A stretch of 64,000 nt of DNA, taken from assembly GCF_002886185.1 (NCBI RefSeq), contig NZ_KZ614146.1, positions 873,234 through 937,233 of the forward strand, given 5' to 3'. A program made the translations under genes and the position numbers. The notes beneath the pieces were generated by a model that was given only the letters and a program-made list of their open reading frames with translations, was not told the origin of the DNA and ran no database searches. Within the stretch, counting starts at the first letter, position 1, and every line of letters starts with the position of its first letter. This stretch comes from Salipaludibacillus neizhouensis. Lineage in GTDB: Bacteria; Bacillota; Bacilli; Bacillales; Salisediminibacteriaceae. Shown here one piece after another: positions 673 to 59,270 of this stretch.

Positions 673-820
673 TATAAAATTGGCATCTACCTTCACACCG
701 CGTGTATCAAGGGAAACCCGCCTTCTTTCGAGTAGCACCTTCACGCATTACGTAGGTGCTACTCGGCGCGGTGGAACTAACGCTGTATTTAAGAAAAGAC
801 GCTTTGCGTTTTTCTTATAG
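673..820 (+). repeat. Family-1 interspersed repeat, copy A
   Basis: This is the first full copy of a repeat of about 150 bp found at nine places in the window. It has three parts. An outer pair of arms comes first, normally ATCTTTACGCCAC and GTGGCGAAAGAT but degenerate here. Inside is a hairpin with GAGTAGCACCT and AGGTGCTACTC arms (730-764). At the 3' end is a terminator-like hairpin, GACGCTTTGCGTTTTTC. It ends in CTTATAG, the inverse of the CTATAAG start seen in other copies. Together with copy B it fills most of the gap between acsA and the small ORF at 1013. Confidence 0.85.
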
Positions 821-825
821 TATAA

Positions 826-952
826 TTTATAAGTTGACAGCTATCTTTACGCCACAAGCATCAAGGGAAGTTCGCCCTTGATGCTTAAATGATGGTGGCT
901 TTAAAGATCACGCTGTATTTAATAAAAAACAGCAGAGCTGTTTTTCTTATAG
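826..952 (+). repeat. Family-1 interspersed repeat, copy B (variant centre)
   Basis: Head-to-tail neighbour of copy A, starting TTATAAGTTGACAGC and ending in CTTATAG. It keeps the outer arms and the 3' hairpin, here with ACAGC/GCTGT arms. The usual GAGTAGCACC hairpin is missing; instead AGCATCAAGGG and CCCTTGATGCT (857-884) form a different central hairpin. Outer and terminal parts therefore stay constant while the central cassette differs. Confidence 0.8.
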
Positions 953-1012
953 AATCTCCTTCTTGATTTTTTTCGTAAATCAACGTAGTTTTAAGGGTAG
1001 GGAGTGAATAAA

Positions 1013-1165
1013 ATGGATATTTTTACGATACTCATTCTTATTGTAATTGGAATCATCTTATTAAAAGTTGTAGGAGCAGTTTTCAGAATTGTTATTTTTA
1101 TAGGAGTTATCTTGTTTATTGTTTATATTTTCCAACAATTAGTAAGTTCAGCTGCTGTATACTGA
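1013..1165 (+). CDS. Small hydrophobic membrane protein, 50 aa
   Basis: A short ORF starts with ATG at 1013 behind the purine-rich site GGGTAGGGAG. The product is almost entirely hydrophobic: residues 4-18 and 22-42 are Ile/Leu/Val/Phe-rich and look like one or two membrane spans separated by a short segment with Lys18 and Arg25. No conserved motif is recognised. Similar 50-60 aa hydrophobic proteins are common in Bacillaceae, but the function cannot be inferred. It lies between the family-1 repeats and fumC and has no terminator before the fumC promoter region. The clear ribosome site and the biased composition support a real gene. Confidence 0.6.
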   Translation: MDIFTILILIVIGIILLKVVGAVFRIVIFIGVILFIVYIFQQLVSSAAVY

Positions 1166-1260
1166 AGGAATTTTTAACTTTATTGTACGTCCTTGATGTA
1201 ATGGAATGGAAAGACTGTTAGAGAAGTGATTTACTAATAGAGGTCACTGTAATTTATAGG

Positions 1261-2803: not shown

Positions 2804-3727
2804 ATGAATATCGTTGATTTACATTGTGATGCATTATTGAAGCTTCACATGGATCCAGGAAAATCATTTACAAATGATTCAGACTTGGAAGTGAATGCTG
2901 AAAGATTGGTAAAAGGAAATGTGAAATTGCAGTTGTTCGCTATTTTTATTGAGCCGGAGGTTACTAGTCACAAACAATTTCAAGTTGCTCTTGAGCAAAT
3001 CGATCTTTTTCACCGTGAAGTAGTAGGCAAACATCCTAATATAAGAAAAATTGTCCATTGGTCTGATGTTGCTAAACTAAAGGATGGTGAAATTGGAGCT
3101 ATTCTTACTCTTGAGGGTGCAGAAGCATTTGGGAATGATCTTGTAAAATTAAGGACCTTATATCAACTCGGAGTGAAGTCTATAGGCCTAACATGGAACA
3201 ATGCAAATTTATGTGCTGACGGCGTAGCGGAACGAAGAGGTGCAGGTTTAACCAAATTAGGGTTTGAAGTGGTGACAATGAATAATCAAGAAAAGGTTTG
3301 GACAGACATGTCCCACTTATCAATAAATTCCTTTTGGGATGCAGTCGAGGCAGCCGAGTTTCCAGTTGCAACCCATTCAAATTCCAAAGTGATCTGTGGG
3401 GACCGGAGAAATTTGTTAGATGATCAAGCCAAAGCCATTATTGATAAAAAAGGATTTATTGGAATGGTTTTTAATCCCCCATTTTTAAATGGGAAAGAGA
3501 CAGCCACGATGGACGATGTTTTGAGACATATTGATCACTTCTGCGGTCTGGGAGGATCAAAACACGTTGCATTAGGGTCAGATTTTGATGGTATTACGAT
3601 GCATGTCAAGGATTTAGAACACGCAGGGAAATATCAAAATCTGGTTAATGAATTGCTAAAAAGATTTAAAGAAGAAGAAGTGCGTGGATTTGCATACCAA
3701 AATGTCATTGATCGTCTTCCAGTTTAG
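2804..3727 (+). CDS. Peptidase M19 family (membrane-dipeptidase-like) dipeptidase
   Basis: Zn-dependent dipeptidase of the amidohydrolase superfamily, 307 residues and the usual bacterial length. The N-terminal metal motif HCD is at residues 7-9. The bridging glutamate is in LTLEGAEAF near residue 106, a histidine is in ATHSNS near residue 191, and the C-terminal GSDFDG motif is near residue 262. There is no signal peptide or membrane span, so the product is cytoplasmic despite the family name. The start has a GTGAGG-type ribosome site. A G-rich hairpin with a T-run follows, so the gene probably ends its own transcript. Substrate preference is not visible. Confidence 0.9.
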   Translation: MNIVDLHCDALLKLHMDPGKSFTNDSDLEVNAERLVKGNVKLQLFAIFIEPEVTSHKQFQVALEQIDLFHREVVGKHPNIRKIVHWSDVAKLKDGEIGAILTLEGAEAFGNDLVKLRTLYQLGVKSIGLTWNNANLCADGVAERRGAGLTKLGFEVVTMNNQEKVWTDMSHLSINSFWDAVEAAEFPVATHSNSKVICGDRRNLLDDQAKAIIDKKGFIGMVFNPPFLNGKETATMDDVLRHIDHFCGLGGSKHVALGSDFDGITMHVKDLEHAGKYQNLVNELLKRFKEEEVRGFAYQNVIDRLPV

Positions 3728-3772
3728 AAAATGAGTAGCTTCATGGCGGGTTTATGGAAATAATGGGGGCGG

Positions 3773-3811
3773 GGGAGGTTATTAAAGGACCTTTACCGCT
3801 CCCTTTGTTTA
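3773..3811 (+). terminator. Probable terminator after the dipeptidase
   Basis: GGGAG and CTCCC arms enclose inner pairs GGT/ACC and AAAGG/CCTTT with a small bulge, followed by TTTGTTT. The rest of the 305-bp gap (to 4032) holds AT-rich promoter-like sequence for msrA, including TATACT near 3981, but no ORF. Confidence 0.6.
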
Positions 3812-4032
3812 CTTTCATAGAGAGAATAGTTAGGCTGCAATTATGCCCTCGCCTACATCGAGTAAAGATCATGATTAATTAAACCCTAAAAAAGGCTTTA
3901 TAATTACTACTTTTCTAAATGTTTACTTGGTGATAGGAAAGGTAAGCATATTATAAAGTCTAACTCTGCATGCATGTTATACTTGGGTCATGAATGGCTG
4001 TTCGATAATTTCTAAGATGGGAGGCATTCAAA

Positions 4033-57399: not shown

Positions 57400-57436
57400 A
57401 TCATGAATAAATCAAAAAAGATTTATTCATGATTGG
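57400..57436. terminator. Hairpin shared by GNAT and MFS gene ends
   Basis: ATCATGAATAAATC and GATTTATTCATGAT are perfectly complementary with a short A-run loop. The MFS stop codon lies in the right arm. Confidence 0.7.
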
Positions 57437-58680
57437 AATTTTTCCATTGAACTAGAATCGTGATATTTTCGTTTGGAAGGCTTTATGATAACGAATAATA
57501 AAACAGTCGTCAGCACCAATGTGATAAAAGCACCACTTACAACGACATATTCAACGGAAATTAAATGAGCTGTGACAGCAAAAATAGAAGTGGTAACTAT
57601 GACAAGAAAGGCTTCAACAAAACCATACATACTTCCAATACGTCCCATAACATCAACTGGAATATTATTTTGATAAAAAGTGAAAAATCCAGTGTTGGCA
57701 AAAGCATTCGCAAAGGCTAGAATAAACACCCCTAGTGATGCCATCAAGAAACTATTGGAGAAAGCAAAAATAATGTAGCCTATAGCAACCGTAAAGGAAC
57801 CTAGACCGATGAGTAGAGAAATACTTAGGTTTTTGGTGAACACTACATTAATAATTGCACCCACTAGTATCCCTGCACCCGCAATACTTACGAGAAATCC
57901 ATATTCCCCATCTGTCAATGAAAGGACTTCTTTTGCGAATGCCACCTCAAGGGAATCTATTGCTGTTTGCAAAACGACAAACCCACTAAACAGGAAATAG
58001 ATAGTAATAACATAAATGTATTTCCGGCTAAATTCCATCACTACTTTCCAGTCTTTCTTTAACAGAGTTAAAGACATTGGCTCAATGGGTAATTTATTAA
58101 TACTGTTCTTTTCCAAGTTAGGCATAAATAGTGTGACTGTAGCTGAAAAGAAAAATGCAAAGGCATTAATATAAATTGCAAGGATAGGGGAGCCACTCAT
58201 AAATAATAGTCCGGTAATAGCGGGACCGATAAAAAAAGCACCCGAATCAAGTAAGCTTCTTAAAGAATTAAACTTTTGTCTTTGCTCGGTCGGTATGAGC
58301 CTTGTCATATAGCTCACCGAACAAGGTCGATAAATAGAGGAAGCCATATTTATAAAAAACACCAAGATGTAAATGACCCATAAGGAAGTATAGAAAACTG
58401 CTAAACATGTAATTAGAATGCCTTGCAGAAGATCCAACAAAATCATGAAGTGCTTTTTGTTAAGCCGGTCAATTATGCTGCCACTCCATAAATTAGTTAC
58501 CAGTGTAGCTAAAGGTTTGATGATGTAAAGTAATGCCACGGCAAGAGCAGATCCTGTCATATTGAAAACAATAACATTCAAAGCAATAAAGTAGATCCAC
58601 ATGCCAATATTGGAAATTCCAATACCAAATAATAAGATGGAAGGATACTTCCATGGTTTCAATACTATTCTAATATTCAC
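57427..58680 (-). CDS. T-box-controlled MFS transporter (DHA3-like)
   Basis: Twelve-span major facilitator, 417 residues, resembling the DHA3/macrolide-efflux (MefA-type, MFS_3) group: NIGMWIYFIALNVIVFNMTGSALAVALLYIIKPLA near the start and LWSGSIIDRLNKKHFMILLDLLQG as motif A. The start is GTG at 58680, seven bases after GGGATGGGG. That ribosome site is part of the T-box terminator's 3' flank, so folding could affect translation too. A longer frame upstream runs through the T-box and is not coding. T-box control implies a link to one amino acid, perhaps import or export of it, but the substrate is unknown. Confidence 0.85.
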   Translation of the reverse strand: MNIRIVLKPWKYPSILLFGIGISNIGMWIYFIALNVIVFNMTGSALAVALLYIIKPLATLVTNLWSGSIIDRLNKKHFMILLDLLQGILITCLAVFYTSLWVIYILVFFINMASSIYRPCSVSYMTRLIPTEQRQKFNSLRSLLDSGAFFIGPAITGLLFMSGSPILAIYINAFAFFFSATVTLFMPNLEKNSINKLPIEPMSLTLLKKDWKVVMEFSRKYIYVITIYFLFSGFVVLQTAIDSLEVAFAKEVLSLTDGEYGFLVSIAGAGILVGAIINVVFTKNLSISLLIGLGSFTVAIGYIIFAFSNSFLMASLGVFILAFANAFANTGFFTFYQNNIPVDVMGRIGSMYGFVEAFLVIVTTSIFAVTAHLISVEYVVVSGAFITLVLTTVLLFVIIKPSKRKYHDSSSMEKFQS

Positions 58681-58681
58681 T

Positions 58682-58990
58682 AAAAAACCCCATCCCCAAG
58701 AATTTAATCTTGAGGACGAGTTTCGAAATCGCGGTGCCACCCCAGTTTATTAATATGTCACCATATTAATCTTATCAAGTACGTCAAAGGCAGAAACACC
58801 CGTGGTTTACTAGAGGTTCAAACAAATGATTATACTTTAGCTCTATAACGGGAGCTCCCGTCACATCATCCCCAGCGAAGGTTCCAATGCGACACTTAGA
58901 GGCTTGGTTCAATAAATTCATTCTTACTCCTTTTCAATTAACGGAGCTCCCTGTAAAGAACATCATTACCTACTCTTCTCTTCATTGCGT
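58682..58990 (-). ncRNA. T-box leader upstream of the MFS gene
   Basis: On the minus strand, stem I begins near AGAGAAGAGTAGGTAATG with the AGTA bulge. The T-box sequence AACTGGGGTGGCACCGCG lies at 58747-58730. A terminator, CCTCAAGA...TTCTTGGGG then TTTTTT, ends at 58682. By analogy with other leaders, the specifier position after ATTGA reads ACC (58908-58906, threonine); shifted by one it would be CCA (proline). A promoter-like TTTACA, 17 bases, TAAGAT lies upstream (about 59034-59006). Uncharged tRNA should permit read-through. Confidence 0.92.
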
Positions 58991-58999
58991 TTCAAATAT

Positions 59000-59270
59000 T
59001 TAAAATATCTTATCATTTATAACAAATATTGTAAACAGTGTTATTTTAGAAGGGTGTTTTAGTGAAAAAGTTGGTGTATCGGGAAAGGAGCTTAAGAAAG
59101 TAAAAGGCGGAGACTTTAGCGTGTGAAGCAACGAATGAAGCCCTGCTCGTGGAAAGTGTTCTTCCGCAGTGAATTCAAGTGGCATCAAAGGCTCTGATGA
59201 TATATTTAAAGATTGTTCATAACTTAGCATGCTAAAATAAGGATAGAATGAAAGAGAGGGATCTGGACTT
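59000..59270. repeat. Degraded GC-rich Bacillus-type repeat before a HAD gene
   Basis: Positions about 59090-59175 (AAGGCGGAGACTTTAGCGTG ... GAAGCCCTGCTCGTGGAAAG ... TTCCGC) match, in decayed form, the repeat at 60838-61005 (AAGGCGGCGACTCCTGCGGG ... GCATTGCCCGCGGAAAGC ... TTCCGC). No ORF is present. The remainder is the promoter region of the HAD gene. Confidence 0.55.

Follow-up and report, generated by a model that had tools for sequence, protein, structure and literature searches.

A glutamine-specific T-box leader class upstream of putative DHA3-type MFS transporter genes and second glutaminyl-tRNA synthetases in Bacilli

A complete transcriptional T-box precedes a gene for a putative DHA3-type transporter of the major facilitator superfamily (MFS) in Salipaludibacillus neizhouensis, and comparison with related leaders assigns its specifier codon to glutamine. 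Both elements lie on the minus strand of the window, i.e., the whole 64,000-nt stretch of DNA that was analysed. The preferred reading, to which a probability of roughly 0.45 is assigned, is that of a glutamine-specific T-box through which uncharged tRNA-Gln induces a pump that exports an inhibitor of Gln-tRNA formation. Under such a mechanism, uncharged tRNA-Gln would bind the CAA specifier through its anticodon (UUG) and UGGC through its free NCCA end, thereby favouring an antiterminator that would allow RNA polymerase to reach the MFS gene; with charged tRNA-Gln, the terminator would stay in place and the gene would remain off. The DHA3-type pump would then export the inhibitor, possibly one of glutaminyl-tRNA synthetase (GlnRS), or one of glutamyl-tRNA synthetase (GluRS) where Gln-tRNA is made from Glu-tRNA-Gln. 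By analogy with the T-box family, the leader is expected to respond to tRNA in this manner; export by the MFS protein and the nature of the inhibitor are inferred.

The leader, its specifier codon and its start region

The following features were assigned, listed in the direction of transcription:

59007..59035, minus strand: promoter-like TTTACA-17-TAAGAT, 5' of the leader (consensus match only)
58709..58994, minus strand: T-box leader with stem I, stem II/IIA-B, stem III and antiterminator (RF00230, 91.6 bits; R1, 149.5 bits)
58904..58906, minus strand: specifier codon CAA, glutamine (sequence; register from comparison)
58849..58860, minus strand: stem IIA/B element CGGGAGCTCCCG (cmscan alignment; leader alignment A1)
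58749..58770, minus strand: stem III (RF00230 alignment, fold, alignment A1)
58736..58739, minus strand: T-box UGGN with N = C, able to pair with G73 of tRNA-Gln (sequence, RF00230 alignment, ARAGORN)
58689..58720, minus strand: intrinsic terminator stem-loop, 5' arm shared with the antiterminator (13 bp, -20.6 kcal/mol)
58688..58697, minus strand: GGGGATGGGG, likely ribosome-binding site, mostly in the terminator 3' arm (sequence; start-distance comparison)
57427..58680, minus strand: MFS transporter, DHA3 type, 417 aa, GTG start (Pfam, NCBIfam, motif residues)

The first-pass annotation had described a T-box RNA with all main landmarks, and this description held: RF00230 matched positions 58994-58709 (minus strand) over model positions 1-219 (E = 1.5e-20 in a scan of 881 bp), and a terminator follows. 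Because the score lies 1.4 bits under the RF00230 gathering score of 93, this T-box is absent from a default Rfam scan. The only Rfam element that such a scan displays is a lysine riboswitch aptamer (RF00168, 54568-54750, minus strand, 115.7 bits), downstream of which lies a 299-aa frame named by eye as dihydrodipicolinate-synthase-like (54419-53520, minus strand). The higher score with R1, a covariance model that spans the leader from specifier to T-box and was built on 20 leaders (alignment A1), is not independent, since the window sequence is one of its 20 rows. A genome-wide search yielded 19 T-boxes of at least 58.9 bits, comprising the window leader and 18 others, and two further matches of 15.6 and 17.7 bits were treated as chance. 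One of the 18, before a proB-like gene (L019), is a weak T-box at 58.9 bits with no proline codon readable at the expected place.

Folding of the whole 321-nt leader gave a z-score of -2.34, with 1 of 100 shuffles equally stable, and none of 200 shuffles equalled the terminator (58720-58689). The antiterminator stretch by itself received no support from folding, as 169 of 200 shuffles folded as well; an antiterminator that is weak without tRNA is what the T-box family would predict. In the RF00230 alignment, the strand CTCGTCC is common to the antiterminator and terminator pairings, which makes the two folds mutually exclusive. Upstream of the leader, two promoter-like sites were found against a shuffle mean of 1.5, and comparable sites occur in 13 of 22 MFS leaders with sufficient upstream DNA.

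The stem I loop of the window leader reads GAACCAAGCCTCTAAG, in which the first-pass annotation had tentatively seen the threonine codon ACC; the proline codon CCA is equally legible in this leader alone. Across relatives, a different register emerges. In 16 other T-boxes of the same genome (a count by eye of first genes and specifier spacing that excludes hisS and proB), the distance from the end of the specifier to the conserved GAG is 6 nt in 13 and 7 nt in three; in the window leader the 6-nt spacing gives CAA, the 7-nt spacing gives CCA, and ACC fits neither. Among 98 leaders of GlnRS and MFS genes in which the codon stands at GAA+1, CAA is invariant while the preceding base varies freely (C in 47, A and G in 22 each, T in 7), and this constancy beside a variable neighbour identifies CAA as the codon. 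The tRNA complement agrees with this register: among the 72 tRNAs of the genome, ARAGORN found G73 in tRNA-Gln, A73 in tRNA-Pro and U73 in tRNA-Thr(GGU), together with three tRNA-Gln(UUG) genes, so the CAA specifier matches a host tRNA. The window UGGC is complementary to G73 of tRNA-Gln and mismatches both U73 and A73. Such agreement is usual in this genome, where, read by eye, N pairs with the discriminator base in 15 of the 18 other T-boxes, forms a wobble in one (trp) and does not pair in two (his and one tyr). Taken with the presence of GlnRS genes behind the same leader class, the sequence comparison indicates that the specifier is CAA, for glutamine, and leaves a threonine or proline T-box with hardly any likelihood. 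The comparison upheld the T-box itself and changed its amino acid from threonine to glutamine. Serine (AGC) was considered as well, as tRNA-Ser(GCU) also carries G73, and was ruled out by the register and the GlnRS linkage.

The earlier description of a GTG start with its ribosome site in the 3' flank of the terminator was likewise borne out. The U-run occupies 58687-58682 and the start at 58680 lies one base beyond it; with this start, a conserved Trp sits as far from the N-terminus as it does in three homologs compared by eye (L067, L069, L074). The G-rich stretch at 58697-58688, largely in the 3' arm, is the best candidate for the ribosome site. To judge from the homologs, this GTG position is unusual and this lineage lacks the spacer and ribosome site found as a rule, as the start lies 14-174 nt past the U-run in 85 of 90 MFS loci (start codons assigned with a simple rule; apart from that of the window, four short distances may be mispicks). 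Since the start is 1 nt from the U-run and the candidate ribosome site is inside the terminator stem, opening of the terminator could control translation too, as a feature local to this lineage. The same arrangement might instead signal a switch that is decaying in this genome, with spacer and ribosome site lost and with expression poor or translation dependent on terminator opening. Besides the atypical start, decay would fit a score lower than those of 12 of 13 relatives in the first homolog batch (100-121; one at 71.6) and two of three in the second (116.6 and 98.5; one at 87.3), and a specifier-to-T-box span of 184 nt where the remaining 19 rows of A1 have 138-163 nt. The MFS frame is nevertheless intact, as are the specifier, UGGC, stem III and terminator, and decay is judged quite improbable. 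The excess length of the span lies mostly between stem II and stem III (58840-58771, minus strand).

Recurrence before MFS and GlnRS genes

The RNA class, its codon, its gene pairs and their recurrence are what the comparison of genomes shows. Counting that of the window, 31 of 60 genomes contain an MFS homolog at E <= 1e-60. Among 29 homolog loci, the Rfam model detected a T-box in 16 (13 of 16 in the first batch, 3 of 13 in the second), and the RF00230 cut-off was reached by 12 of 16 and 2 of 13 loci, respectively. Two close homologs (L072 and L073) keep the gene behind T-box remnants that have lost stem I, one locus (L079) is at a contig end, and ten more distant loci have no T-box by the Rfam model. 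In a FastTree phylogeny of the MFS proteins (121 rows; of the order's 90 loci, only proteins of at least 380 aa were kept), these ten T-box-less homologs fall on one side of a branch with an SH-like value of 99.

When R1 was searched against 299 genomes of the window's order, 220 matched at E <= 1e-6, other T-boxes included. Among the matches listed, 147 of this class were examined (30 with loci and 117 other listed matches; G013, G047 and G052 omitted as identical to L082, L089 and L086): 90 precede MFS genes, 10 GlnRS genes and 3 other genes, all with CAA, and 44 carry AAA (lysine). CAA was present in all 90 MFS and all 10 GlnRS loci examined; L126 was read by hand (CAA, N = C) and L247 has CAA directly after GAA, both being counted as CAA. 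The variable base of UGGN is C in 85 and T in 5 of the MFS loci, and C in 2 and T in 8 of the GlnRS loci. The three other CAA targets encode a GNAT protein (L123) and a protein of about 156-194 aa (L135 and L160), which also follows the MFS gene in L158. The AAA leaders were picked up by R1 as members of the same RNA class and read in the same register; those with an identified first gene precede LysRS genes of both classes, a GNAT protein of about 186 aa and, once in the order, an aspartate-semialdehyde-dehydrogenase-like gene (LysRS and dehydrogenase-like frames named by eye).

Across the window's taxonomic class, 76 of 398 genomes matched R1 at E <= 1e-30. The 24 new loci read from a set of 30, the remainder being already known matches, comprise 13 MFS and 7 GlnRS genes, all with CAA, and 4 dehydrogenase-like genes with AAA; nine further loci add six MFS genes with CAA (one repeating L277) and three AAA cases. 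AAA T-boxes of this class stand before the aspartate-semialdehyde-dehydrogenase-like gene at L261-L263, L274 and L218.

MFS homologs with 49.6-58.0% identity were also found on five Bacillaceae plasmids (one strain supplies two of them, and two leaders are nearly identical), and all five have a CAA leader. N is C in two of these leaders and T in another two; the fifth, L310, has UGGA, which mismatches G73, and at 64.5 bits is perhaps degenerate. On the 41.7-kb Priestia megaterium plasmid pN447-3.3 (L313; coordinates 695-1187, minus strand, and 3648-3900, plus strand), thrS stands behind two tandem T-boxes, about 2.5 kb from the glutamine T-box MFS gene. The plasmids of L310 and L312, from Peribacillus and Priestia, both carry a NUDIX hydrolase gene close to the MFS gene, at 86 bp downstream in one case and at a distance of some 1.7 kb in the other; one of the two plasmids also has a GNAT gene. 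The idea that the leader is a relic of a lost synthetase gene, raised with the first-pass annotation, is rejected because the RNA-MFS pair recurs at the 90 loci of the order; it is found as well at 13 of the 24 further loci and on the five plasmids.

Elsewhere the leader class precedes a gene of Gln-tRNA formation, as would a glutamine T-box: it stands before GlnRS at 10 loci in the window's order and at 7 loci read from a different family of the taxonomic class, which makes two orders. All 10 T-box-GlnRS genomes of the order possess two GlnRS, the copy without a T-box scoring better with TIGR00440, and two GlnRS are likewise present in all eight such genomes of the other family (codon read in seven; G671 by coordinates only). 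The HIGH motif, kept in 22 of 22 first copies, reads HIGS in 16 and HISN in one of the 17 T-box copies, with the last His lost in all; near the SKR motif, first copies have SKRKLK versus SKRYLR or a close variant in T-box copies. A quick tree of 16 rows (L257 and L309 being the same gene, and L268 flagged as a long branch meeting the other group) places the T-box GlnRS on one side of a branch with an SH-aLRT value of 100. The first copy is presumably the housekeeping enzyme, and the HIGS-bearing second copy (GlnRS2) may be another way of meeting the same stress. GlnRS2 could also have an ancillary stationary-phase role by analogy with T-box LysRS, which is always accompanied by a second, non-T-box LysRS and for which that role, not resistance, was proposed (PMC2916919).

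TIGR00440 exceeds its cut-off in 115 of the 299 genomes, including that of the window, which also has GatB and whose own GlnRS has no T-box in front of it by the genome-wide T-box search. A positive link between the T-box MFS gene and GlnRS presence was tested and the opposite trend was found: the gene occurs in at least 16 of 115 genomes with GlnRS and at least 76 of 184 without (p = 3.7e-7, kinship uncorrected), both being lower bounds because they are based on listed matches only. Among the same matches, none of the 10 T-box-GlnRS genomes also has a T-box MFS gene, a number too small to mean much. In genomes lacking GlnRS, Gln-tRNA is made by GluRS and an amidotransferase (PMC2494555), and the RNA should therefore report glutamate charging of tRNA-Gln there; the inducer of the T-box MFS gene would be a GluRS block or a lack of glutamate.

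Export, import and other possible roles of the transporter

The downstream gene had been described as a DHA3-type MFS protein, and the profile matches fit this at the level of the MFS: MFS_1 (PF07690, 2.5e-27) and MFS_3 (PF05977, 4.7e-19) exceed their Pfam cut-offs and place it in the MFS, and motif A and C residues are present. Its score with the DHA3-type model TIGR00900 is 113.4 bits against a cut-off of 319.6; exporter models (H+ antiporter, EntS and Tet(V)) take the first three places in NCBIfam, all far under cut-off, and the weaker matches include two uptake families, PgtP and aromatic acid/H+ symport. Motif C marks exporters. The MFS fold cannot distinguish import from export. The residues of motif A (G67, D71, R72) and motif C (G152, P153, G157) are conserved in 100% of 109 T-box-linked rows, a set that includes a few genes fetched twice; since the ten T-box-less homologs also keep them, except R72 (5 of 10), they speak for the family and not for this role. 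The nearest named relative is from Sutcliffiella halmapala (72%), and a sequence search of solved structures found no relative at E 0.01. No recurrent next gene follows the MFS gene (68 loci compared, of which 63 have a frame at that place), and a fixed operon was ruled out, as downstream genes differ widely.

A pump exporting an inhibitor appears more likely than a glutamine importer from these sequence data. Counted in favour of export were the RF00230 match, the constancy of CAA, the fit of UGGC to G73, the GlnRS linkage, the HIGH change and its IleRS2 precedent, the motifs, the exporter models at the top of the NCBIfam matches and the plasmid copies; counted against it were the customary assignment of T-box transporters to uptake of their cognate amino acid (PMC2494555), the weaker uptake-family matches, the second copies of LysRS, the bias towards GlnRS-less genomes, the UGGA of L310 and the lack of a recurrent next gene. 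The chief rival, a doubtful but not negligible one, is an importer of glutamine, glutamate or a glutamine-containing peptide that is switched on by starvation. Most transporters under T-box control in Firmicutes take up amino acids (PMC2494555), and in the listed matches the gene is commonest in genomes without GlnRS, where charging of tRNA-Gln depends on glutamate; an importer would sit less easily with a DHA3-type protein bearing motif A and C residues, with the plasmid copies, and with sister CAA targets that are duplicate synthetases rather than biosynthesis or known uptake genes. It is less probable again that the protein exports some other metabolite or serves as a general stress pump, with the level of Gln-tRNA charging taken as a sign of nitrogen or stationary-phase status. 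The T-box LysRS with its ancillary role (PMC2916919) offers a precedent for this, and the missing partner gene and the decay of the T-box in L072 and L073 while the gene stays are compatible with it; the constancy of CAA over two orders and the plasmids argues the other way.

An extension of the export reading, held more tentatively, is that the glutamine T-box regulon of Bacilli acts as an antibiotic sensor, in which uncharged tRNA-Gln would induce either the DHA3 pump or the HIGS GlnRS2 against a natural inhibitor. If export is true, the RNA would mark the pump by the stress that it answers, and the pump and GlnRS2 together would point to natural products that block Gln-tRNA formation; if the sensor reading is true, a leader-reporter fusion would provide a screen for the inhibitor. 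In the mentions of GlnRS and GluRS available from one review, no natural inhibitor is named, only synthetic microcin C derivatives against GluRS (PMC7916415). T-box specifiers serve to assign transporter substrates, and in this case the obvious reading of a single leader (threonine or proline) was wrong and comparison revealed glutamine.

The GNAT gene of about 186 aa stands behind AAA T-boxes of this RNA class at L214, L220:378-947, L230, L232, L236, L237 and L239-L244. For the protein of L220, the only one scanned, RimL scores highest among the NCBIfam models but stays under its cut-off. Because RimL and MccE detoxify aminoacyl-adenylate antibiotics (PMC7916415), these loci may represent a parallel lysine case.

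Relation to known T-box systems

With the usual transcriptional RF00230 T-boxes with full stem I, the window leader shares the landmarks, a UGGN that matches the host tRNA and the terminator/antiterminator pair; it differs in its glutamine specifier and its DHA3 MFS target. Glutamine specifiers are among the least common in TBDB (PMC7778990). A literature search found, in the text that it covered, no description of a glutamine T-box-MFS pair or a T-box GlnRS2; as the main surveys of Vitreschak (2008) and Gutierrez-Preciado (2009) lay outside it, priority cannot be claimed. A screen of 891 genomes for synthetase genes included GlnRS, and a word search of its available main text gave neither "Gln" nor "GlnRS" (PMC2916919).

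Wels et al. (2008) reported one T-box MFS gene in Bacillus anthracis (PMC2494555), which resembles the window in having an MFS gene behind a T-box in Bacillus and differs in its label, being placed under Lys in Table 1; the legend of Figure 6C in the same paper colours one specifier class "Pro or Gln". If the B. anthracis transporter belongs to the same family, a register displaced by one base, with CAAG taken as AAG, would account for its entry under Lys.

Three further systems come close. The lysK T-box of Bacillus cereus (class I LysRS) resembles the T-box GlnRS in serving an extra synthetase beside the normal one, with a codon from a mixed codon box, and differs in its lysine specifier and in its explanation as an ancillary stationary-phase enzyme (PMC2916919). 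As the lysK leader also answers to tRNA-Asn (PMC2916919), cross-response of the window class to tRNA-His is possible. IleRS2, like GlnRS2, is a second class I synthetase beside a normal copy with an altered HIGH motif, and in IleRS2 the alteration raises mupirocin resistance up to 10^3-fold (PMC10485003); the change itself differs, GlnRS2 having HIGS, with the last His lost, versus G/AXHH in IleRS2. Finally, the ThrRS-ArsR-MFS operon of Bacillus siamensis and others, behind tandem T-boxes, also brings a synthetase and an MFS gene under T-box control (PMC12452182), but with threonine and within one operon, whereas the glutamine T-boxes described here place the two genes at separate loci.
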